In this document: piece by piece, positions 7,451 through 25,645 of the stretch
How positions within the stretch are numbered: the first letter of the stretch is position 1
How the letters are laid out: each line of letters starts with the position of its first letter
Origin: Lunasporangiospora selenospora
Lineage: Eukaryota > Mortierellomycota > Mortierellomycetes > Mortierellales > Mortierellaceae
Reading direction: 5' to 3'
NCBI GenBank assembly: GCA_015680635.1
Contig: JAABOA010000102.1
Coordinates: forward strand, 1-25,646
Length of the DNA: 25,646 bases
Program-made: the position numbers and the translations under genes
Notes under the pieces: model-generated
The model's input: the letters and a program-made list of their open reading frames with translations, nothing else
The model's database searches: none
What the model was told of the DNA's origin: nothing

Positions 7451-10400
7451 TCATTTATCTGATAACCGAGGTTGGGCGTGTCCTTTCAATATCGAGAGGA
7501 TAGTGTGTATGTCTTGCTTCAATTCTGTGACATCTCTTTTCAACTCGGAGACTTCTACTTGGAGTCTTATCACAGTGCTTTCGGTCAGCATGAAAGTATG
7601 TTGACTCTCCTTTGAAGACTTTTGAGATCCAGAGATCTCCCTCACTTCATCCACCTTCTCCTCAGAGATGAATTTTCCATCCTTCATCTTGATCCGTTGC
7701 CAGTATTGTTTGACTTGGTACGGTGTTGCAGTGTAATAGATCATTTGAGGGAACCAATCAAACTTTTCTCGGAATCCTGTGGTCCATATAATATAAGAGA
7801 GAAATGCGTCAAGTAGGAGGGGCAAAAGATATGAGACATCCTATTGTATTAGAAGACAGTACTTTCAATCAGAGGTGAAGAGCTGTATTGTCTAACAGTA
7901 ACTCACTTGCCTGAAATGTGAAATGTCATGTTCTCCGTACTCTCGATATATCGGAGTCTGTTCTTGAGCCATACCTGGCGCCACGAATCATCGGCTCTGA
8001 CAAATACCACGTTGATTAAAACTTTGTTTGAAGTATAGTCGGGACGAGGGAGAAAGGAAAATTCAGGGGTTTGAGATCGGGTCTAGTGATCTTGAATCCA
8101 CAAAAGAATGTCAATCGTCGTCTCTCTCTCATTGTTCAATCCAACCCTTACCAATAAACACATGGAGTATCATAATAGACGTAAATGTAATGCAAATCAT
8201 AGCCATAACTAAGAGAGTCCAGCTCCGGAAAGCTGGTAGAGGCGCAGTGTCTTCTTGATTAGGTGTGCCACTACCAACCCATCTGCTATCGTCTTCAAAT
8301 GGATCAAACCGACCTCCCTGTTCCAAGATCGATATGGGCAGTCCAATAAGTACTTGTTAGTAAACATATAAAGTGGTTCTCACTGTAATAAAAAATCTAG
8401 TGAGGATCGCCTGTATTCATGTCCCAGAACCAGTACTTGCCATCATCAGGTACACGGAAGTGACAGCACCAAAAAAGTAATTTGGGATTCCTGCTCCTGT
8501 TTCTTTCCCTCCAATATCAGCAACTCCATGGAGGACATGAATAATGGAGATCGAAAAGAACAACAGCCCACTTGCAAAAACAATAAGGAATATCTTGATC
8601 TCACATAGGACGCAAAGCACAAGAGTGATATACTTGCACATGGGTTTGTTCACCCGAAGCTCTGCAACCTAGAGATGTACACGCGTCATTAGGACAGATG
8701 AGGCAATTCTAAGATGTTTTGAAATCCATTTTCAGAAGCTACGACAACCATGACTACCAACTCAATGCAACCCCTTCTCTTGCCGAATATTCTCAAGTCA
8801 ATACACCTCACTTACCAAGTGAAAGAACACTAAAATAATGCAGAAACTAAAGCTCGATGTCACCTCCTTCGTCCCCACCTTAAAGAGGTTGAGGAGTTGG
8901 TAGATACTTGTCCCAAGAGGATAGAGGTACACGAGCAGATTAAGCAGGTTGGATAGTAATCTAATGGCCATTCTAGGGTTAGTACAATCTGTGGCACTCT
9001 TGATTCACGCTCTAGGCTCTCTCATCTCAAGGGAGCAGGCAAAGTTGAACCGAGTACCTAAGATTTGGGGAGCACCCCCTCTCTTCATTCATCATTCTCC
9101 TCCCTGAGATAATCAATCCCTCACTCGACTCTCTTGCGTATCGAATACGAGCAAGACTATCTCGCCACTGCAGGAATGCGAGCCACAGGAATATGCACGA
9201 AAAAGTACAGATGACTGTAAACAACCCAATAAGCGCAATCCTATGGGGGGTATAAACTTGCATGAGAGCTGCAGCTACGATAAGGATGAAGTAGACACAC
9301 CGCGAAGCAAATCGGGCGAGCCAAAACTTGAACACAAATGTGTTCCTAAGTGATATGGGTAAAAAATTGTATTAACATACTAGCCAGCAATTTCAGGCTT
9401 GATTTCACTCAGAGCCATAATAACATACTGCCGCAACTTACCATTTATAATGGATGATAGCTTCAATGGCTGGATTATCCAGTATCTCCAGAGAGTAGTA
9501 CCGTGGATGGATGTACACATGCCTAAAAGGGTTCAAATTGAACAGGATTATGTAGTAGAATACCTGTGGCCAAGCTTTGTCAAGTTTACAGTTGGTTGAC
9601 GAGAACTCAGAGGCAGAGCACTGAGAGTTGGGAATAAACGACCATAGGAGATTGACGGGAGCAATATGGACCTCTTCAGTAAAACCAGTATTGCGAGTGT
9701 CAGGCTCTTGGCCTGTATAGTTCAATTGGAGGATCGGGTTCTTGCATTCGTAGATCTTTCGAGCGTCACGAACCCAGAGATGAATGCGGGTGTGACGCTG
9801 CACAATCCTGTAGTTGTTGACGATCAAATCTCGGTCGCCCTGCTTGAAATAGGCAAAAACTCTTGAAGTAGCGAGCCCAACATCAGGATACTGATATGCG
9901 AGATCCTCCTGACATTCAAGAAGGAACATGATGTACGAAATATCGATCTTGTTCTTTGCTCTGTTAATGCAGTAATTGGTGAGGATACGGATTATTTCCA
10001 GTGCCCCAGGTTCTACCAACGCTTTCTGGAGCATGATTCCGACAGGGTTCGATCCCTTTGAATACCAAAGGCGAGGTAGCCAGTTGTGCTCAGTGTGTGG
10101 CTCTAGCAATCGGCTCAGTGTGTTCATGAACTGGGGGTGATTCTGAGCTGTCCATTCTTTACAAAGCGATGACATTACAGACTTGGAGTGGTCATCAGGA
10201 TCCGGGTAATAGTTGACATGTCTTCTCAAATATCGGATCAACCCTTCCCGAGCATTCTGAACCTTGGCCCTGTTCTTATAAAACATATCAACAGCCGTGT
10301 AAAGGAACTTGTTTGCAGTGCCAGGCGTGAGCACATTTGCCAAGTACAAGTCAACCTCTTTGTTATTTGAGAACAGCCTGAGCGATCCCCAATAGGGAGA

Positions 10401-11996
10401 GTATCGAATCGAACACTCCCAATATTTCTTGTGAATGGAGTTAAGCATCCTATCAATAGAAACACTAGTGCGATCTGCAGTGGACGAGTCAGGTGTCACT
10501 CGAGAACCAAGACAGTGGGTGGGTCTCGACAGCTCCCAATATGATAATGGTTCAAGATCATCGCCTGGCATCTGTGGTAATCGCCAAACCGAAAGGCGGA
10601 TCGCGTCTTTAACAGATCCTAATGCCACAATCTGTGAATGCTCCTGAACGGAATAAAACCTTTCCGCTTCCAAGCTCACTTGGCTTGACCTGCCATCCTT
10701 GAACTGCGTAGTCACCATTAATTTTTGGAAATCTCCCTGTCCTGGCTGACCCCCGAGACCATCTCTTGTCCTCATCGAATAAACCCCATTTGAGAACGAA
10801 AGGCTCATCTCCTTCTTGATCTCTGGCAACTGGTGATGTCCCGATACGCACTCGCATTTCCTCTGCGCCATGTCGTCAAGGTCGTGCGAAAAGTCTTCAA
10901 CAAGAGAGACCTCGAGGGTTGATCCGTGGCAACTGGTGATAATGGCAGACCCCGTGTTGACACTCAGGTATTTCTTTCCAGGATATGTATGGTGGATTTT
11001 GGTCATGCTCCTGTATGGCAAATGGATCTTGAACTGGCCTGAGTTTGAATTTGTAGGATTAGCTTCTCTCTTCCAAAGGTATATCCTATTCTCTGTCTCG
11101 AGGTATCCTGCCCAGTTTTCGTACGAGACGTCAATCTTCTGAATGAACATTCCCGATATTGCCGAGTAGAGGAACAGAGCATCAATTGTCGATATGGCAA
11201 TCGCACAGCCGTCCGAAGATAGAGCAAACCTCTCAATCCGATGAACTGTATCAATATTGCAGAGTCGTTTCCCTGAAACCATGCACCAGATAGAGAGTCG
11301 GAGAGGCGATTGCCAAGCTGCAATGATTCCTTGAGTCATATTCAAGAACGTCCAGCGCATTCTTTCCCAATCCACTACTGGAGAGATCTGGATGTTGTAA
11401 AGCATCTCCCATTCTTCACTGGTAGTAAATACATGGAGCTCCTTCCCATTGTAGGCCACATATCGCTCTGACTTGTCGCTCCATTCCTCTGTGGCGATGT
11501 GGGTGAACCTAGCATATCCTTTGAAAAGGTTGAGTCTAGTGCAGCGACTGTGGCGCGTTGAAGGCTGGAGTATAGTACGTTTTCGGCTCTCCTGAAGGGA
11601 TGACTGATCATTGGCTCGAGGGTTCTTAAATGTGAATAGCTTTACAGGACGCTCCAGCGCGATGTTGTTCTCATTAACGGCGATTTGAGACCCATCCCAT
11701 GATATTGAGAGACGGTAGTTACGATTCTCTTCCTCTCCATAATCCACCAAATAGTGGGCAGTTGATGTGGTGTGATGAGTTGAGAGGGTTGAGTCTGTTG
11801 ATGGCTGGGTCCCGTTTTTCAGATCTAAGTCCCATACATCAAGGTGAAGTCGTCTCCCTGATGACGAGAGCGTGGCAGTGTGGGATCCGGACGCTGATAT
11901 GGCATAATCCACGATACTTGCAGCAACTCGCGGTCCATCCTTTTGCTCGCTATCGTTATGGTATATATTAATTGCCTTTCTTGGGGCAGGCACCAT
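7451..11996 (-). CDS. Propeller-channel protein: WD40-like N-terminal region fused to a six-helix ion-channel-like domain
   Basis: Seven exons in consistent phase: 11996-9442, 9345-9058, 8972-8816, 8668-8441, 8317-8152, 8021-7911 and 7776-7451, giving 1276 aa. Residues 1 to about 500 have propeller-like strands (VWDLDL, LSISWDGSQIAV, FALSSDGCAIAI, LSVWRLP). About 500-850 is a helical pre-channel region. Hydrophobic helices: S1 862-883, S2 889-910, S3 952-975, S4 about 988-1018 (with HLVAELRVNKPMCKYITL), S5 1022-1046. A pore-like segment (NYFFGAVTSVYLMM, then GRFDP) spans 1063-1081, S6 is 1108-1131, then VVFVRADDSWRQVW. The tail at about 1230-1262 has heptads (VIRLQVEVSELKRDVTELK), suggesting a coiled coil that oligomerises subunits. 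The plan resembles TRP-type/Ion_trans channels, presumably in the plasma or vacuolar membrane. Introns 4 and 6 appear to start with GC. An in-frame TGA lies nine codons before the chosen ATG. Ion selectivity cannot be read from sequence. Confidence 0.8.
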
Positions 11997-11999
11997 AGG

Positions 12000-12800
12000 T
12001 AGAGTATAATCTGGTAGTCATACAGTTAACTGGTTATTGAATTGTAGGTATTTGTTTTGCAAATCAAAATTGGCTATGTCTCTCACGACAACCTACCGTA
12101 GTGAATTGGGCCTGGCAGAGTCTGGAAGAACTCGATGTAGCACAACTGTACCGATCGTGAGTATGAATTACCCTTTTGATTCAAACAAACTACACATAGT
12201 CCTGCATAGATCTGAGCGCACATGAGAATTCGGACAAAGCATATTTCTCCTATTTCGAGTAGTTGAAAAAAAGGTTGTTGGTGGATATGAAGAAAAAGGC
12301 GCATCTCAATTCCAACCCGATAATCAAGTAGTTAACCAGACCTTCAGCAAGAGTCGAGTCTATAGTGAAAGTCTAACAAAAAATGATCCGATTTGTCAGC
12401 CTTGCTCAGGGTAAGGGCGCTTTACAAATGAGATTAGCAATGGTAATGACATCATACCAGACCCATTATGTTGATATCCTTGATTCCCTCGGCTTCTTGG
12501 TCAAGCAAGAAACAAAACACCGTATAATAGGACCCGCTGGTACACATATTATCACTCGGTTCAATCTATTTCCCATTACAGTTGTCAATAGGGGAACAAG
12601 TAACATCTTGGTAGGACTGTCAAGAATGCTGCCAGACTTACAGTAAATGTATCCACTCCTGATATCTTCAAGGGTTTCATGTAGTCCCTATCATGGAGAG
12701 TGTGAGTATGTGGTGTCGTGATACCCTGAGGGTAGGTCTCTGGATTTCATATCCCTTCCGCTCACAGCCTAACCCAAAGAGAACGTTTATCCTGCCAGAA
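12000..12800. other. Upstream region of the channel gene, no clear gene
   Basis: This stretch lies 5' of the channel gene. Short open frames exist on both strands but none looks coding. The minus strand has an exon-like 45 bp piece near 12690-12645, between an ATAG acceptor and a GTAAGTC donor, but it cannot be linked in phase to others. Confidence 0.3.
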
Positions 12801-14359: not shown

Positions 14360-16191
14360 TCAGATTTCGCCCTCCATCTCCGAGGTAGCGGGCTCGTCTG
14401 GGCTCTCCATGATCTGCTTGAACGTCTCGAAGTGGTGTCGAGGGTTCTGTTTAGCCTCGACCGAAATCTCGTCCACCTCCTTGAGATTAGTTGTGGGTGT
14501 GATGGCAAATACAATCGCGGCAAATGTGCGGCCTTTTTTGATGCCTCCCATATAGTTGGTCTTGATCACCTCCTTGAACAGCTTGGCCATTGAATCGGCA
14601 GGGTTATGGAGACGTCCACACCCGAATGCTGACAACACAATTGCATCATGACCTGAGGGGGATGGATGAGAAAAGAGAACGTCAGCCAACAGAAACAATG
14701 AAGCGAGTTAGCCAGCAGCAGAATTTTCTCTAGCCTCAGACACAAAACATTTGTGCTCTCAATCCATCATTACCATTCTCCAGTGCAATCCTGAACATGT
14801 TTTGGATCTTTTTCTTGGTGATAATAGCTGCTCGCTCACCCAGGATCATCTTATTGGCCTCGTTGGGGATCAGTGGTGGATTGCGCAAGGGTGCCATGGC
14901 CTGAAGTATCAAGGAAGATAAAAGAGTGTATACAAGACATTAGTCTGCTGTTTAAGGTTTGTAAGTACACAGAGAGTCGATGAACAGTGCTTACCAAAAA
15001 GCTCATCCAGTCAGGGCGATCCATGAGCTCATTGTTGTTTTGATTCGATTTGCGGAGGACGAGCATATTGGGGCAGTAGACACCGCCCTGACTAGGCAGT
15101 GGGTAGAACTCGGAACGACGGGGCTCCATGTCAAGGCACTGAAAGAGATTTGTCCGGCGAAAGAGTCCTGCCTCTTGCGACAAGCCGTCGAGTCTGTAGT
15201 CTGATATGTCGTACAAGGATAGCGTAAATTCCACTGGTTAGTTTTTACAGCCCGCCCCACGGCATCTAAATTGTATGGATTACGGTAATATAGTGCATTG
15301 TGGTTCTTTTAATAAAACCTTACCTCCGCCTGGGATCTCCCGGCTGGCCATGTCGAGCACCAGGGGCTTGAATCCTAGCCTCTTTAGCCTCAGAGCCTCA
15401 TCCAGACTGTCTGCCTCGACGACCTGGATTACGGGATCCTGCTGAGAATCCATGATCTGGCGTCGGATCCTAGAGTTGCCCTGGTACAGTCTTGCTCGTC
15501 GTACGCCCGAAAAGAGCTTTGCGCTATCAAGCCGGACGGTCTTGCCAGACGGTGTTACATATTGGAGCAACTCGAATGCTTGTACCGTCTCTGCGATCCG
15601 GGGGCTCAACGGCACAAGTGCTGCAGCTGCTGCGGGGGAAAGTGAAGACGAAGCCGCCTGACCGAAAGAGAGGAACCCAAAGATCGAGACTCCCAAGAGA
15701 CGAGAAAATACCCACAGAACAAAAAAGCCGATAGCAAGGCTCGAAACGATCCGGCGCCAATTCCGCTCGAGCAGCATACTGCCATTGTCGATGAACTGGC
15801 TGCCGGTGTTGCTATTGTTGGCGAGGTCATGGCCGCCGATGCTGTAGTACTTGTAGCCGTAATAGTAACGGCGAGTAGTTTTCCGGTGGAAACGCTTGAT
15901 CTTATGAAAGAGTTGCTGACCATACTGGACGATCTTCCCGAAGCGGGACTGAGGTCGCTGGTGCTGTGGGAGGAAAAGTGAAGAGGAGGAGGAGGAGGAA
16001 GAGGAGAAGGAGGAGGAAGAGGTAGAGAAGGTGAAGACGCCACCAGGAAGGGTCATGGAGTTTGGGCGGATGGTGATTGGCTTCTTGACATGATACTGTT
16101 GCTGCTGTTGTTGGATGAGGAGCTTTTGCTGAACAGACAGAGGCCGAGGCGGGAGCGAGTCTCGTTTCTTATTTGCTCCTGGGGGCATCAT
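14360..16191 (-). CDS. Membrane-anchored microbial-type PARG-like (TIGR02452) protein with altered catalytic motif
   Basis: Four exons, 16191-15324, 15200-14995, 14900-14774 and 14652-14360, in consistent phase, give 497 aa. Residues 1-145 are low complexity (polyQ 27-32, polyS 58-71, basic 97-110). A membrane helix lies at 148-172, so the protein is probably a single-pass anchor. From about 196 it matches the TIGR02452 family, whose active members remove ADP-ribose from proteins: VLDMASREIPGGG (278-290), SQEAGLFRRTNL (298-309), YPLPSQGGVYCPNM, and near the C-terminus VLSAFGCGRLHNP, the macro-domain phosphate loop. The family signature is GGG-x(6-8)-QEE. Here it is GGG-x8-QEA, so the catalytic second Glu is Ala301. 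Family membership is clear; hydrolase activity is doubtful. An alternative acceptor after 15234 would add 11 residues in frame but stretch the signature spacing to 19. The gene is divergent from the esterase at 16855. Confidence 0.88.
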
Positions 16192-16854
16192 GCGATGGGC
16201 GGAGCGGATGAGGGTGGAGGATGGTGCAGCGAGTAGAAGAGATGCGACAAGGAGGAGTAAACGGGGGCAAGGCAGGGGATGGATGGATGGATGGATGGAT
16301 GGATGGATGGAGAGATCGGCTGCAACGGGCGCGGGGATGCGGGGACTGGAGAGGAAAGGGAGACGGAGACTGCAGGAGAAGACGAAAGGCGCACGAGAGC
16401 AGCCTGGACGAAAGGAAGATAATATAAAGATGATGAGGCGGATGAAATAGCAGATGGATTAGCAGATGAAAAGGAAAAGAAAATAAAAGCAGATGAATGG
16501 TGAATGGACAACAAACAGAGTCTGGGAGACAATGGGCGGTGGGTGCGGAGAGAGAATGAGAGCCGAATCCTCGTCAACCCCCGGTATCGGCCTGGATTTG
16601 TCTCTCGACTTTTGTTCTCTCTGTTGCTCTCGGTCTCTCATTTCCTCTCTGTCTCTCACACACACTTTCTCCCAGCCATCATCGCTCCCGCCACACAGAC
16701 CCGCACGCTCTTTTTTTCTTTTTCTTTTTTTTCTCACCCTTCTCCTCTCCACTCACACACTCACAGGAACAACGATCGCACGAACGAAACTAAAAAGGTC
16801 AGGACGCGCTGCAAAGAGCCCATCCATCACATCATCGTACCAACACGCTCATCC
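16192..16854. promoter_or_regulatory. Shared divergent intergenic region (PARG-like / esterase)
   Basis: These 663 bp separate the two start codons and should hold both promoters and leaders. The PARG-proximal part is purine-rich on the plus strand. The esterase-proximal part (about 16600-16765) is strongly CT-rich, with CTCTCTGTCTCTC runs and poly-T, typical of fungal leaders and core promoters. An in-frame ATG at 16504 would extend the esterase by 117 residues through this low-complexity sequence. The ATG at 16855 was preferred for that reason. Confidence 0.5.
16277..16308 (+). repeat. (GGAT)8 microsatellite
   Basis: Eight perfect GGAT units in tandem lie 86 bp upstream of the PARG-like start codon. 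Length is likely to vary between strains. Confidence 0.95.
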
Positions 16855-18435
16855 ATGTCCACCCATTCACCCAAAGTCTCTCCCGCCGACTCTTCCCTGC
16901 GTCGTCGCGTCGCCAAGGACCAGAGCCTCGACCCAGAAGACGATCCTTCTGGCTCTTCTACTGCCTCGGCCTCGTCTCCACCTGTCGCCGACTCGACCAC
17001 AACAGTTACTGCCCCGGCATCTACGACAGCCATTCGCACCAGCCCTACAGAGGCCACCGACGGCCGGATCCTCTACAATGGACAGACTTACCATGGCACT
17101 GGTCGACTCCCCCGTGACGCTCCCTTCACTCCGTCATACGTCAATGCTTGCACGTTCAATGCCGTAGTTGCCTTTATATCACTCGTTGTCACGGTCACCT
17201 TCTTTTATTTCAAGGTCATTGCCGGACTCCTGGAATCGCCTCAAATTGGCTACGGGTACTATCCCTATTCGGAAGGTGGTCATGCAACGCCACCTCCGGG
17301 AATGGCAGACCAGGATTATTGGAGATGGGTCCACGAAAGCGGTGTCGCCGTCGAGCCCCGGGCAATGCTGTCCCCGATATGTTTACTGCCATCCGAACAG
17401 CAACAGCAGCAGCAGCACCGTTTTGTAAAGCAGGAAGCAGATGATGGTGATCGGGATTGTCGGTTGTTCAGCAAGATTGTTGTCCTAGCAGACTCGATCT
17501 CCAAGTACGGGTATTCACACGCGACCCATGGCTGGGTTGGGTCACTCGCGGATGAATACGCAGGAAAGGCAGACGTTGTCTTGCGTGGCTTCCCAGGTAA
17601 CAAAACTGGGAAAATTCTTGTCTTATCTGCAGCTGATTCCTGTCGATGCGCCTCAATCAACCCTAAACGAGTTTGAATTTTGTCCGCAATCCTCACGAAT
17701 TCCCCTGCCCATTCAACTTCTAAACTAGGATACAACACTCACTGGGTCCGAACCCTCTTTCCAGAGATTATCGAACAGGATTCCTCACTATCGTCACCTT
17801 CACAATCGCCGTCTTTGTCTTCAACCCCCGCAGATTCCTACAAAACACCCTATTACACCCCTATCAAGTTGGTCATTATCGCACTCGGCACTGACGACGC
17901 CTCTCTGCCCCATAAACGTCAACACATTCCTGTTAGCTCTTATGCAGAGAACATTCGAGCTATTGTCCAATCTATCCGCTACCCAGATGATCCGTACAAC
18001 TATGCCCCCGACACTCAGGTTATACTAGTCACACCAGCGCCCATTTACGATGCCATGTGGTCGGCATCACTTGAGGCAGTTGGCGAGACAAAACCAGATC
18101 GGGTCAACGAGGTTACGCGAGAGTATGCCCAGGCATGTGTAGCTGTTGCAGAAGAGTTGGGTCTCCCTGTCGTCAACCTCTGGCAAGAGATTCAATGCCA
18201 ACTCGATCACTCCTGTCCTATTCAAGAATCAGTAAGGCCTGAGGATTTCTTGATGGATGGGCTTCATCTTCGACGTCTTGGAAACGATGTTCTTTACAAG
18301 GGTATTTTGAATGCAATTGCACTCTCGTACCCAACCCTGCACCCCACATGCTGGCCAAGCGTCTTTCCCGGTTATTTGGCAGGAACAAGTCCTGAGCAAT
18401 CCTTGTTGAAAAGACAGTGCCGTAGATTCCATTAG
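16855..18435 (+). CDS. Membrane-anchored SGNH/GDSL hydrolase, IAH1-like, with altered active-site blocks
   Basis: Exons 16855-17596 and 17729-18435 (132 bp GT-AG intron, phase 1) give 482 aa. The junction restores GFPGYNTHW, the family's block II. Residues 1-97 are Ser/Thr/Pro-rich; one membrane helix lies at about 101-125; a polyQ run is at 182-187. The hydrolase domain covers about 204-450: ADSISKYG (212-219, nucleophile Ser214), GFPGYNTHW (245-253), IIALGTDDA (297-305) and DGLHL (424-428, Asp424/His427 dyad). IAH1-type enzymes cleave short acetate esters, and the fold and blocks II and V fit. Two deviations: the Gly of GDS is Ala212, and the block III oxyanion Asn (GAND) is Asp303. A low-complexity insertion (about 264-288) separates blocks II and III. 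Activity is therefore uncertain. The gene is divergent from the PARG-like gene and ends 127 bp from the convergent THADA-type gene. Confidence 0.87.
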
Positions 18436-18562: not shown

Positions 18563-21500
18563 TTATTCGATCAAGAAAAATCTCTTCAAACAACCATCGT
18601 CCTTGCTCTTCCGTTGTCCTGCTTCAACCACCACAGGGTGGACGTTTGTCGTGTCCCGAACGATGGACAAAGCCTCCTCCACTTCCTTGTCCCCAGAGTT
18701 CTGCGCCCCATTTCCATCCACGATATGACTGCCACAGGCAAGTTTCCAAAGTACCTCAAACACGGGCTTCTGGCTACTAATTCCCCAAGGGGAAAGCCTG
18801 CTAATACCACCACTAGACTCTGGCTCTTGAGCAGTCTTATTAATTTCTCGGATTTCTTCGACACACGTTCCTTGGAGCGATCTCAGTCCCTGGATGATAG
18901 ACGTCGGGACCGATGGGCCTGAAAGGATGAGCTCAAGGGATCGCTGCACCAGCTGCATTGATACCAATGGCTCTCGGAACAAGTTGGGGGACTCCTTGTC
19001 AAAGAGAACCTTGTTTGGCTGAAGTGACTCTTGAACTATGGATGCTACAAGGCATGGAAACAAAGTGAAACCTCATTAATACAGTGCAACCCGATCTCTT
19101 TGTGTCTCACTATGAACACCAGCTACATTCAGGCACAAAGAAAAAAAAGAATAAAGCTTGACATACCTGGTTTACCCGTGCCCATCAATTGAGATACCAG
19201 AGCATTCACCAACATTTGACATTGGGTCTCCTTACCAGCGCCAGCGAACAAATTCAGCTGGTGGTCGTATACCAATGTCAATGCCTTCTCAGCCGAGATG
19301 GCAGATGGCAGCTGGAGACCACGAGAGACTACCAAAGCTCCAGCCTCCCGAACCTCCTGCTCATCATCCTGCAATTGCCAGGTCAATGCCTCAAAAAGCT
19401 CAAGGTAGGCACGAGTGACAGGCTCTGAAGGTGATTGATGTTGCACTGGATCCAAAAGTCGATCTGAAAAGGATGACATGGATTCCATGGCGGCCTCACG
19501 AAGTTGCAGCGTCTAGAATACAGATTGCATAGTGCGGAGCACGTTTAAGCTTGGGTGAGTTTCACAAACAGCCAGTAGAAAAGTAAACAGTTTCGAATGA
19601 ATTCCAAGCAGTACCTGATCCTCGTGGGCATGCTTATGGATTGACTTGGCCCAACGACTCAAGCAATCGATTCGTAGCGCTTCGGGGATACTAGAGTCAT
19701 TCCAGATCTAAAGAACAAAATTGAAACGGGAGAGATAATGAGTACAAAATTAAAGACTTCCCCTAAAGCACTATTTTTTCTTTTGAGAAAATAATAGTTG
19801 TCCTGGATTATTACCTGTGCAAAGACATTTCCAATGGCCGGAAGAATCGCCTCAACAACTGCAACGCTACCAGTCTCTCTGTCGTCCATGCGCCTGAAGA
19901 GTCGGTTCCAGAATTCAACGATATCGAGTCCAGCTCCATCGCCTGTCAATAGAGCGATCGCGAAGGGTCGCCCTTTTTCTCCAAGAGCCGTCATCATCGC
20001 AACCTCGACTCTCAGACACTCCAAGTTCTTTTCGTTATTGAACAAGAGCTGGATTACCACCCGATGAATAGCCTCAGCATCTAGTTGAGCCCGGAATCCA
20101 TCTTGGGAGCTCTCCCACAACGATTGAAGTGTCTCTAATGTCTCTAATCGGACCTCATAATCCGGGTCGTTCAGCAGGGATACCATCATATCCATTGCTT
20201 GCTCCTTGGAGAGTACAGTATTCACTCCTGAGACAATCGCCAGAATTACATTCCTAGCCATGAGGCGACGAACAAGATGTCCTCCCACTTGATTTCGATA
20301 CATTCCCTTATCTTCCAAGAGTCCCACCAGGCTGTAGTCAAACATAAAGTTTCGGATTCCCTTAAAGAACACATCGCTCAGACGCTTCATCTCTTCTCGC
20401 TCAGTCTCTGTAGACTTACTCAAAGTCGTATCCACATCCATGTCTGATTCCGTAGTGATAACAGTCTTGGTGCTTGAGGGATGGACCGAATCCTCGCGGT
20501 CACTACCCATCCAGTCCTGTCCAAACACAAACTCGGCAAAGATCGAAAGGACCATCCATCGATTCATCTGGCATCCGTATTGAAGTACTCGTTCAGTCAC
20601 AGGACCGATAGCGTCTGCAAACCGGCTCACAAATGATCGGCGAACCGCTCGATCTGCCACACCGCCTGATCCACCGCCTTCGCTTTGCAAGTGTCCACGA
20701 AGCAGGAACTGGACCTGAACCAACAGGCCATGGATCTCGTTCTGGCTGATTCTTGGTTTTAAGCACCCCCGCAAGATGTCTGTGACGACATTGATCAAAT
20801 TTCTTGAAGCAACGAGCGGAATTAGGGCTCTGGCAGCCATCTCACGTGTCTTCCAGATCGCACTGGCGGCACATCTTCGGACCAACACGACAAAGGGCTC
20901 CATAAGACCACCGTTCTCCTCAGTTGCATCAGCGGGATCGGCCTCAAGGCTTGGTTGAAGTCTGGACAAAAGCGTCAAGACAGGATAGAGGCCTGGATGC
21001 ACACGATCCGTCGAGGACTCGGCGCCAAGGAGTTGCTGGACTGCCACCTCCAGTTGGGTCTGGAGGAACCCACAGAGACCCTCGAGACGTGCAAAGAGCT
21101 CACGACTAGTAATTCCATTGATAGCTTGGTGCTCGTCTCGGACGCGCTTGGCACCAAAAACACGATGCAACAGTGTCGAGAACAACATCACACCACAGTT
21201 CCTGACAGCCCACGAAGGGGAAGAGAATGCTCGGATCGAAAGCTCCAAACCCTGGCCAACATATGGCAACACAGATGTGCTGAGCTTGGCATCCATAAAG
21301 AGTCGTCGAAGAACGTTCATGGCATGGATCTGGGGCAAGTCTACTTGATGGTTTGCATCGGCACTCACGGGCTTTTCGGCAATCGCCATCACACGGCGCA
21401 TTACCATTGGCAAAAGCGTTCGTCGTGTGTCAGAAAGTTCAGCATTGACGATGGCGAGGATACAAAGAGGAAGACCTGCAGAGCGTCGTGTCACGGAGAT

Positions 21501-24500
21501 GGTGTCGCTCAAAATCGAGTCCAAGTTCTCTTCAAGCCAGACACGAGGGAGGGTGGCCAATTCTGTGTCTTCAGAATTCAACAGTCGGGTGCACAGTGAA
21601 ATAAAAGCTGGGAATACAGATGAAAAGGCTCCTGGGTGTCGGATGGTCGTCAAGAGCCGACGGAAGAGGGTGCCTGCACAGTCCATTGCCTGTGGTTCCA
21701 AGACACCCTCAACCTTTGTAGTCCTGTTCGAGAGCGTAGCCTTTGAAAGGACGAGCTCCATCAATGCTGAGGACTCCTTCACTGCTCTCCAGCAGTAACT
21801 CAAAATAACTTGATGGTTAGGCCCGGAGCTCTGTCCAAGGTTATCCTCGTCTCCTCCAAAGGCGCTGATGACAGCATCAATGGACTCTTCCATCTCTGTA
21901 AAGGTAGCAGGGATATTTCCTTCAGGTGAGGGGTTCGAGAGGACTCCCATGACGATCGAACAAACCTCTTCGACAAGACTCATCATGTCTGCGTGAACCT
22001 TTCGCCAGAGCTGTCGGTGGTTGGTGACAAGGGGTGAAGAATAGTCGATCGAAGAGAAGAGATACCGCAAGCCGATCAAAGTTCCATGCATTGGGTAGCG
22101 ATGAGCGGCCTCCAGTTGATTCTGCCTAGCCTTGGCGATTTGAAACCGCAAGAGGTTCTGGAGGCGAATAGCGAAATCAACTACAGGGATAGGGAGATGG
22201 AAAATAAGAAGAATGTGTGTAAGCATGAAAGATGCATTTCCAAGACCATATTATTATTCCTGAAATAGACGCATGAGGATTGCTCACCTGCTGGGTTTCC
22301 AGTTTCTGGGGATGTGACGAGACCACTAGTCTCCTCGTATGGGATCTGGATGTCCCATCCAAGTTCAACAGCATACTTGACAAACACAATCTTCAGAACC
22401 AATCCACCCGAGTCACTCTCGCCTGCCCTTGTGCTTGTAAGCCAGTCAAGACCCCATCGAACCAACTTGTCCACCTTCTCTTTGGTGTCATAGCCTGCAA
22501 AAGGTGCCCTGAATTGCGACAAGATATCAAACGTCTGCTCGCGGCACTGGTCATAGGGATCCAGCAATGAGATCAATAGAGTCTTGACATGCTCTTTTGT
22601 GGCAATAGGAAGCTGGAATGGGAACCGGGAGATTTCATCCGCCTTGGCGCCCGAAGGTAATGGGGTAGTTTCGATACCAAAGGTCTTGATGATCACACCC
22701 AAGAGCCGCAAATTAGTAGCCACGCGCTGGAAGGATGATCCTGGATAAAGCGATGAGAAAATGTGCTCCAAAAGCCATTCCAAAAAGGATCTTGTCTCCG
22801 TGATCTTGTCCTGGCGTTCCTTGATCTGAGCCTCAATCTGTTCCGGTGTAAGATTCTTCTGTCCCACAGGCGTGTTCAGACGAGTAACTTCACGAGCCAA
22901 GACATAGATGTTGCCACGGATGCGAAGCAGAAACTTGGCCATATGGGCATAAAGCCTTTGGCGAAAGTCGGGAACAACCGAGTTCATGTTCAGGGGCAAG
23001 TATTGCTTCAAGAGTTGGAATTCGACTGACGATACTGGGGTGGTCGAGCGCTTGGATTCACAGAGGATTCCTAGGACATCTATCCGGACATCTGCAGAAG
23101 CGTGGTGCATAGCTGAATGGAACACTGAAATATCAATGTGACCTTGCTGCAGTCTTTTGGTCGAGCTTGACTGTTTACCAACGTCTTTGTAGTGGTTCGA
23201 GTCGACGAGATCCAGCGAACGCGCAGTCTTGATCGCAGAGACGATGGCATGGAACCGATATTCCTCATCAGAAACGTACCCAGCATATGCGGGGCTATGA
23301 TCATCCAAGACCTCCAAAAGAGTCCAAAAGGCTTCCGAGCAAGTCGAGAAAAGTGGCGAAATGACAAAGTGGCCGAGGTGCTTTCGAATCAAGTCATCTT
23401 TCGAAGTGAGAGCTTGAACAATAGGCTTGAGCCAAAAGTCGATCCATGGCTGCATTGCTTGCTTTCGAAGCAATTGAATTTGCTCCGCATCCCTTTCGCT
23501 CACAGCAGCAACAGGCTCACTGGCCCTTGCAGCAGAGCGACTGACCTTGACAGGCTTTGGTGGGATGAGGACATTCGCCCGAGTAGAGTCGAGCTCAATG
23601 CATTCCTTCCATGATCGCTCAATCATAGCATTGATCGCTACAGCTGCTCCTGGGGCTGTTGCAAGTTGCTCCAAAGCCGTAATTGCCTGGGCAAGGGTAT
23701 CAGGTCGCATTTGGGTCATCTCAAGGATGGAGACACGGCCAACCAGAATAGCAAGGATTGGGTACTTTGATTTGCGGTGACTGTCGGCCATAATAATGCG
23801 CTTTAGTAGCTGGCTTACGTAAGCCGGGGTCTTTGTTTCTTCCTTGTCCATAACCGACTTCAAGAAAACAATATCAAGCAGAAGCTCGAGGATGTTTCTG
23901 ACCTTGTGCTGAACGGCGTCAATAGGATCCTCCCAGTAGTCAAGAACATAGGCCGTGAGTTTTTCCTGTGCTTGTTCATCAATGCAGTTCGCAAGCGCCC
24001 GCTTCATAGAGGGCGAAGCAGACGACTTCTCCCCAAGGTGTAGCTTTGTCTGCTGGAGCCAATGGCCCATTGTCTCAAAGGCGCTGGTTTTGCTTGACAT
24101 GTCTCTGGAAGTGGCGCAAAGGTAGGCGATGGCGTGGAAGAGCACTTGGTGCAACATCAGCTGCTCTTGCTGTCCGTCCTGTTCTTCAAAGACTTCAGGG
24201 GCGTACCAGCGGCTCAACTGCTCAATTGGCATAACCAATGCCTCCTGTCGGATGTTGGTTAACAGTCCACGCACGATCCCCAACATATACATTCCGGCGT
24301 CTTCCTCTCCAGGACCACACTTGTCGCCCAAATATGTGTTCCAGCCATAATCCATCTCAACCATGGCGCGAGGGATCTCTGGCAAGAATGAATAGTCGTA
24401 GTTGCTCGAGCCGAAAACGAGATGAGAGACTCGTCGAGTGACCTCCTGGACGCTAGGAGCTGTAAGGTCGATAATGTTGGCAAAGAGCATGCCCGAGATG

Positions 24501-25645
24501 GAAGAGAGATCGCGATGATATGCCGGAGAAGACGAGACAACAATTGCATCCTCAAAAATCCTGGCAATGTAGGCGGGTGGTTGGTGTGTTGGCGAGAGCT
24601 CGAACTGGTTGATATTCATGTCCTCCGATGGCCCATTAAGGTTTGTTGCATTGATCAGTCGAGAGAAGATGGCGAGGATCAGCTTGAGAATAAATTCGAT
24701 ATCCTGCATGGCTTCCGTATGCTCACTGGGAGCCTGGTCTCTCTCTACCTATATCCCAGGAAAGTCGAATACATCCTGTCGTTAGTAGCTGTTTACGTTT
24801 GCAGGGGCGATCGACCGATACAATCGGACCTAGAATCAGACTGCCATTCCACGAGAGTTCATCCAATATGGTTACAAAGTACCTGCACATTGGTGGCCTG
24901 TACACGAGCATGAAGCAGTACAGAAAGTTTGTCCAAGATGATATCCAAGTCTGCAAGGAGCGCAGTCCGTCCCAAGGTGTAGTCCAGAGTTGTGTACAGA
25001 CAAAGCGCCTTTTGATGCCACGCCATATCTATGTCGATCTGAGGCTGACCAGAAACTCCCAAGATATCGCTCATGATGACAGATCGAAGCGCCTTGACGA
25101 CGACACCGTCCTGATCAGACTCGTCTTGCTGCAGTAGTGGTTGAAGTGACAGCAGGACACTAAAGATCTGTTTCCGCGATCCTGGCTTTGCGGTAGCAAA
25201 ATAGTAGTATGCGATAAATTGAGAGAACGCGCTCTGAAAATCCGGTCTCTCCAGAAACTCGCCATGCTTTTCCTTTTGAACTCTGGCGGCTTGCTCTAGT
25301 ATACGTAGACATGAAAACGAGCAGGCTTGTAAGCGAATGCCTCATGGACAATTGTTCTGCTGGACGATATGTAACAAGCCTTGAAAGTGGTAGGCCCAAA
25401 ATATCAATACAAAAGACAATCATACCAATCCTCTTGAAGGCAGTTGCTTGTTGTTGGGTAGTGGTTCGGCCATATTTTTCTTGCTCCTGTTTGGAGTCTG
25501 TTACAAAAAGGGCCCAAGCTGTGACCAGTGGCTGCTCGTCCTTGTAGACTTCAAATGGTGCTAGAAGTTGTGACCAGCAATGAGTGTAGGGGACTGAGTG
25601 GTCTTTGGCCTGGAAAGCCTGCTTGGTTCGCTGATGCAGCACCAT
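18563..25645 (-). CDS. TRM732: THADA/Trm732-type HEAT-repeat protein (DUF2428), possibly 5' partial
   Basis: Seven exons in consistent phase: 25645-25426, 25295-24883, 24748-22288, 22180-19815, 19707-19615, 19512-19167 and 19044-18563, 2126 aa from the first ATG. That ATG touches the window edge, so the true start may lie outside. The protein is almost wholly helical HEAT-like repeats with no membrane segment. THADA/DUF2428 hallmarks: YPMHGTLIGLRYLF (about 1060-1073), TRRSAGLPLCILAI (about 1262-1275), IHAMNVLRRLFMDAKL (about 1316-1331), AVRNCGVMLFSTLLHRVFG (about 1356-1374), then WKTREMAARALIPLV. In yeast, Trm732 partners the methyltransferase Trm7 for 2'-O-methylation of tRNA position 32; animal THADA is its orthologue. 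A cytosolic tRNA-modification scaffold is therefore the likely role. Length is close to human THADA (about 1950 aa) and longer than yeast Trm732 (about 1420 aa). It is convergent with the esterase gene. No lesions were seen. Confidence 0.9.

Follow-up and report, generated by a model that had tools for sequence, protein, structure and literature searches.

A PARG-like gene family of Mortierellaceae lacks the catalytic glutamate and is predicted to encode membrane-anchored pseudoenzymes

The window, a stretch of 25,646 nucleotides that is one whole contig of the Lunasporangiospora selenospora genome assembly (G000; 8.2 Mb, 475 contigs), encodes on its minus strand a relative of microbial-type PARG whose signature reads GGD-x7-QEA and not the GGG-x(6-8)-QEE of active enzymes. 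The altered signature recurs in orthologues across the Mortierellaceae and, in a modified form, in a second paralogous group. The protein is very likely a pseudoenzyme; that it senses ADP-ribose is about an even call.

The gene comprises four exons (16191-15324, 15200-14995, 14900-14774, and 14652-14360) with a product of 497 residues, and the public L. selenospora protein BGW38_000098 (P0001) equals this model without the first Met. Exon 1 begins at the first ATG (16191) and encodes a low-complexity N-terminal tail, a hydrophobic helix, and the first part of the PARG_cat_microb domain as far as ...IPGG. Intron 1 (15201-15323, 123 nt, phase 1, GTAAGG...CATATCAG) interrupts an Asp codon at the position of the third signature Gly. 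Exon 2 encodes (D)YRLDGLSQEAGLFRRTNLF...MSFL and is followed by exon 3 and by exon 4, which runs from the diphosphate-binding loop through the stop codon. The product scores 59.2 bits against PF10021 (cut-off 23.5) and 73.6 bits against TIGR02452 (cut-off 50), and its predicted fold is a PARG-type macrodomain. An alternative start of exon 2 at 15233 (a 90-nt intron, adding the 11 residues VEFTLSLYDIS) was rejected: it leaves the frame open, but the PF10021 score falls from 59.2 to 43.8 bits and the added residues are absent from P0001. A GGAT tandem repeat (16277-16312) lies immediately upstream of the start codon.

The original prediction that QEA replaces QEE was borne out. The codons CAA GAG GCA (Q298, E299, and A300) are contiguous at 15177-15169 on the minus strand, in the frame ...LSQEAGLFRRTNLF, and P0001 carries the same residues. 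Since the Ala codon adjoins CAA GAG inside exon 2, splice choice is unable to restore the Glu, and none of the AG acceptors listed within 260 nt of the intron 1 donor yields QEE. The remainder of the predicted motif requires revision. Only the first two signature glycines are present (G288 and G289, 15325-15330, minus strand); the supposed third is Asp290, because exon 1 ends in ...GGC GGA G and exon 2 opens with AC, together giving GAC. The apparent GGG resulted from a translation that ran into the intron donor (G/GTAAGG), and the same read-through has placed a spurious third Gly in database rows P0034, P0062, P0174, and P0175. The spacing is thus x7 instead of x8, and the Ala is residue 300 of the four-exon model (299 in P0001) instead of 301. 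LFRRTNL is present, as had been noted. The macrodomain loop SAFGCGRL had been taken as intact, which holds for SAFGCG but not for the two residues that follow: in SAFGCGRLHN (S408-N417, 14603-14632, minus strand), R414 and L415 occupy positions at which QEE relatives carry [A/V]-[F/Y]. The aromatic consensus reported for the diphosphate loop of active PARGs is G[A,V][F,Y] (PMC7050489), and GCG-R-L was found instead in all 39 orthologue rows that have the residue, of 40 examined.

Homologues were drawn from three sets, one of 93 rows, one of the best 120 of 3080, and one of the best 120 of 177, with 7996 candidates pre-picked by shared words for the last two. The Mortierellaceae orthologue group, denoted clade 1, comprised 43 rows among the matches listed, four without an organism name and some from the same species and so not fully independent; identity across the domain was 54-75%, with broken models giving the lowest values. 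As the original prediction had proposed to check by alignment, QEA is conserved in related fungi: 35 of these 43 rows, including 12 named genera, have GGD-x7-QEA, and the other eight are models broken at intron 1. Database models of the counterparts of this intron (15323-15201 in the window) fail through read-through, skipping, or frameshift, which masks the motif. QEE occurred in none of the 43 rows among the matches listed, a broken one (P0035) carrying Ser at the position, and it occurred in all 164 remaining homologues among those matches, which include 21 Glomeromycotina-type rows and many near-copies of each other. No microbial-type PARG with QEE was found among the listed matches named as Mortierellaceae, many rows being nameless. 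Several family proteins bear UniRef names that begin 'Microbial-type PARG catalytic dom...', which imply an eraser where one is unlikely.

The missing residue corresponds to the general acid/base, as the original prediction held: E112A abolishes activity in Deinococcus radiodurans PARG (DrPARG; PMC6445106) and E749N is dead in mouse PARG, in which F868A and GG737/738AA impair activity (PMC3897571). In DrPARG, the pyrophosphate is contacted by the main-chain N of Gln110, Gly224, Gly226, Val227, and Phe228, and the ribose'' by Glu111 (PMC6445106). Mapping by alignment onto DrPARG (and by motif only onto mouse PARG) suggests that the Gln, Glu, and Gly contacts are retained in the L. selenospora protein, with the Val and Phe, which are main-chain contacts, replaced. 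The protein thus keeps Gln, the first Glu, and both glycines of GCG, and is without the acid and the loop-2 aromatic. Loss of these last two residues suggests that it would be unable to work as a PARG, and we hold with high confidence that it lacks this activity; the earlier reading of 'not an eraser' is therefore well supported. A role as an ADP-ribose reader or sensor is plausible in that the retained contacts are consistent with it without proving it, and the pocket may still hold an ADP-ribose group. However, in the mouse E748N/E749N crystals the signature loop is distorted and the active site contains no visible iso-ADPr (PMC3897571), so loss of the Glu may not leave a good binding site.

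Patterns of constraint differ between the groups. In 18 clade-1 rows, 19 of 26 pocket-loop columns were invariant versus 101 of 251 in the rest of the domain (p 0.0016), and Glomeromycotina rows gave a comparable result (18/26 versus 69/250, p 7e-5). Gln, the first Glu, and GCG were invariant in the 16 clade-1 rows of alignment A3. At the same time the clade-1 loops have been remodelled (G to D twice, A to R, and F/Y to L), and none of the 18 rows tested departs from the two new residues, Asp290 and Asp294. Fixed replacements of QEE-conserved columns showed no significant concentration in the loops (4/16 versus 4/46, Fisher p 0.19), which speaks against a pocket still in use. The position aligned with the ribose-cap Asp of Thermomonospora curvata PARG (TcPARG) varies among 40 clade-1 rows (D 16, N 9, S 6, T 3, P 2, and K 2). 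Of 21 Glomeromycotina-type rows, 20 have D there and one has a gap, and N occurs in 90 of 111 other QEE rows; because N prevails in the latter, the variation in clade 1 has uncertain weight against binding. We saw no sign of gene decay in the clade-1 sequences.

A second group of Mortierellaceae pseudo-PARGs, clade 2 (P0176-P0195), comprised 20 rows among the matches listed, with lengths of 744-829 residues once partial and short entries are set aside. All 20 have the signature GG[D/N]-x8-[N/S/P/V]-EA and so are without the signature Gln, and in all 18 that reach the second loop, LPPHGTEAGQNP or a near variant replaces GCG. The domain is nevertheless well conserved outside the loops, with 187 of 248 columns invariant in 10 rows that are close relatives, and the loops are not special in this regard (19/26). 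Extra conservation of the loops in clade 1 and not in clade 2 suggests that the former still uses its pocket and that the latter no longer does. The one clade-2 protein examined at full length, P0182, has long acidic stretches C-terminal of the domain. A search for a clade-2 paralogue in the L. selenospora genome, for which the assembly is probably incomplete, matched only the PARG-like gene of the window.

Phylogenetic reconstruction with both loops removed (60 rows: 18 clade 1, 10 clade 2, 12 Glomeromycotina, and 20 others) recovered clade 1 (99/96), clade 2 (100/100), Glomeromycotina (100/98), and the others (99/90), and joined clades 1 and 2 (100/99). Given a root among the others, which was placed at the midpoint and not inferred, Glomeromycotina are the nearest group to both Mortierellaceae clades. 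The stem of clade 2 is long (1.33 changes per column), such that its exact placement should be taken with caution. A single change suffices to explain the Glu state on this tree, and its direction would be a loss and not a gain, since QEE is present in all other rows. The simplest history suggested by these data is that the catalytic Glu was lost once, along with the change of Gly to Asp, ahead of the gene duplication. Collectively, these results uphold the original prediction in that the acid is missing and its absence informative, correct its GGG, its spacing, and its intact loop, and indicate that it understated a case that is family-wide and extends to a paralogue.

The protein had also been described as held at a membrane, which is supported by prediction. 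The hydrophobic segment LAIGFFVLWVFSRLLGVSI (15682-15738, minus strand; Kyte-Doolittle maximum 2.06) overlaps the AF2-predicted N-terminal helix (residues 138-164 of P0001). Among the matches listed, 37 of 43 clade-1 rows have such a segment with a peak of at least 1.92, the other six being too short or unplaced, and it is present in 17 of 20 clade-2 rows; none of the 21 Glomeromycotina-type rows showed it. Most clade-1 rows have a charge of +8 to +11 over the 40 residues that precede the segment and of -1 to +4 over the 20 that follow it; the corresponding values are +1 and 0 in P0001 and 0 and +1 in P0029. This bias suggests an N-inside orientation, with the clade-1 domain then on the non-cytosolic side. 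Clade 2 shows a weaker bias of the opposite sense in the 17 of its 20 rows where the segment is clear. Each of 18 clade-1 rows tested has zero or one N-glycosylation sequon, and mitochondrial sorting is another possibility. Within the otherwise variable N-terminal tail, a motif of the form KPITIR[TP]NSM.LPG is conserved among clade-1 orthologues (alignment A3); in L. selenospora it reads KPITIRPNSMTLPGG (residues 37-51, 16039-16083, minus strand) and is a possible site of docking or phosphorylation.

We propose that the protein is a membrane-anchored pseudoenzyme, derived from a microbial-type PARG, that binds an ADP-ribose-type ligand without cleaving it, an explanation for which we consider the case evenly balanced. 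According to this proposal, an ancestor of the Mortierellaceae would have exchanged the catalytic Glu for Ala and the third signature Gly for Asp before the gene duplicated, and both duplicates would carry an N-terminal hydrophobic helix that may or may not predate the duplication. The copy in the window would retain the macrodomain fold together with GG, Gln298, Glu299, and GCG for the diphosphate and distal ribose; without the acid/base and the loop-2 aromatic, its most likely mode would be to bind and not to cleave. The ligand would be free or terminal ADP-ribose. A PAR chain is less likely because Asp290 lies within the glycine-rich stretch, for which work on mouse PARG suggests a position facing the n-1 diphosphate (PMC3897571). 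Ligand in the pocket might then alter what the anchored protein or its N-terminal tail binds. The proposal draws on sequence, conservation, predicted fold and helix, and phylogeny, from which we infer loss of hydrolysis, ligand binding, and sensing.

The main rival to ADP-ribose sensing is a scaffold without ligand, in which the pocket would no longer serve ADP-ribose and the macrodomain would mediate protein interactions at the membrane, possibly paired with the clade-2 paralogue. We regard this as somewhat doubtful, but it would account for clade 2, where the domain is conserved although the Gln is missing and, in the 18 rows (of 20) that extend to it, the GCG loop as well, and it would accommodate the remodelled loops of clade 1; there is also precedent in ADPRHL1, a pseudoenzyme of another ADP-ribosylhydrolase class for which a developmental role is described (PMC10601310, PMC7390403). 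A pure scaffold would, however, have no need for loops more conserved than the remaining domain, or for the invariant Gln, first Glu, and GCG of clade 1.

It is quite unlikely that the protein is instead an altered but active hydrolase, in which Asp290, Asp294, or the substrate substitutes for the Glu and a slow reaction or a different ADP-ribose bond is involved. The fixation of both Asp residues in clade 1 would fit such an enzyme, as would the MacroD-type hydrolases, which are without two consecutive Glu and for which a substrate-assisted mechanism has been proposed (PMC7050489), and human PARG E756N, which retains marginal activity at branch points (PMC8319183). Against this, the equivalent substitutions in DrPARG (E to A) and mouse PARG (E to N) are inactivating, the loop-2 aromatic whose counterpart change F868A lowers activity in mouse PARG is gone too, and Asp290 has an equivalent in 19 of 20 clade-2 rows, which are without the GCG loop. 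An ordinary QEE concealed by sequencing error or a wrong splicing model has a negligible chance of being correct: models broken at intron 1 (8 of 43 rows) do mark the region as error-prone, but the Ala codon sits inside exon 2 with no listed acceptor yielding QEE, and 35 rows from 12 named genera among the matches listed agree.

Profile searches of the L. selenospora genome, which ignored introns, found the window gene as the sole match to PF10021 and TIGR02452 in an assembly that is probably incomplete, and found no match to PARP (PF00644), Macro (PF01661), PARG_cat_C (PF05028), or ADP_ribosyl_GH (PF03747); the PF00644 and PF05028 searches likewise returned zero matches in all 14 control genomes. 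The assembly is regarded as incomplete because chaperonin PF00118 matched on five contigs of the 8.2 Mb, and about nine such genes are expected. The failure to find a writer of ADP-ribosylation counts against the sensing proposal, subject to these limits of the search. We tentatively entertain, as an unlikely extension, that the only microbial-type PARG of the Mortierellaceae became two membrane-anchored pseudoenzymes, namely the gene of the window, still holding an ADP-ribose ligand as a membrane-tethered sensor of an NAD metabolite, and a partner without a pocket. If so, the Mortierellaceae would be without any microbial-type PARG eraser and would provide a macrodomain counterpart of the conversion from hydrolase to sensor in TRPM2. 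The family also raises the question of how ADP-ribose marks are removed in these soil fungi, if such marks are made.

Elsewhere in the window, a divergent neighbour (about 16504-18435, plus strand) includes a frame at 17677-18432 that matches GDSL-type esterases (PF13472, PF00657), preceded by a frame at 16504-17673 without a Pfam match; the two are probably one spliced gene. A THADA/Trm732-type gene (about 19659-24748, minus strand) comprises two or more open frames (PF10350, PF25151, PF25150), and an open frame of 859 residues (9438-12017, minus strand) has no Pfam match at E 0.01.

None of the titles and abstract openings listed in our literature searches concerned a PARG-like family in Mortierellaceae, and no paper in the collection searched had PARG and Mortierella together as whole words. 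An earlier study (PMC4245714), whose main text does not contain the word Mortierella, described incomplete signatures in Naegleria, among them GGA/H-x7-QEE, and noted no obvious PARG in two Mucorales. The nearest relatives in our tree, PF10021 proteins of Glomeromycotina (for example P0042 from Ambispora, P0043 from Geosiphon, and P0040 from Rhizophagus), share 41-46% identity with the L. selenospora protein but differ in having QEE. In 20 of 21 rows the domain is preceded by fewer than 25 residues, as measured by script, and the remaining row has no strong hydrophobic peak (1.17). Some Glomeromycotina PF10021 proteins have a UBA domain. A similar PF10021 domain occurs in a UniRef entry labelled as a purine-synthesis enzyme of Anthurium amnicola (P0041), which probably reflects contamination by a fungus or a transcript from a symbiont.

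Among known systems, two vertebrate proteins offer parallels. The NUDT9-H domain of TRPM2, which resembles the L. selenospora protein in its proposed mode of action, is a hydrolase domain that has lost catalysis and is required for the response of a membrane protein to ADP-ribose (PMC11479946); it is, however, a Nudix domain of an ion channel, and as the L. selenospora protein contains no channel, the likeness is by analogy only. ADPRHL1 is a catalytically deficient relative of ADP-ribosylhydrolases with a biological role, but it is a heart protein of the ARH class. Also among the close systems is microbial-type PARG itself (PF10021/TIGR02452), represented by the structures of T. curvata PARG (PDB 3SIG/3SIH) and DrPARG (5ZDB), from which the L. 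selenospora protein differs in having GGD for GGG, QEA for QEE, RL for [A/V][F/Y], and an N-terminal hydrophobic helix. The T. curvata variant E115A (PDB 3SIJ) carries the same Glu-to-Ala change at the aligned position. Whereas E115A is a single substitution engineered into a bacterial protein, that of the Mortierellaceae is natural, family-wide, and accompanied by further loop changes. The family is thus a natural counterpart of E115A that can be compared directly with its QEE relatives in Glomeromycotina, which opens the step from eraser to binder to testing.
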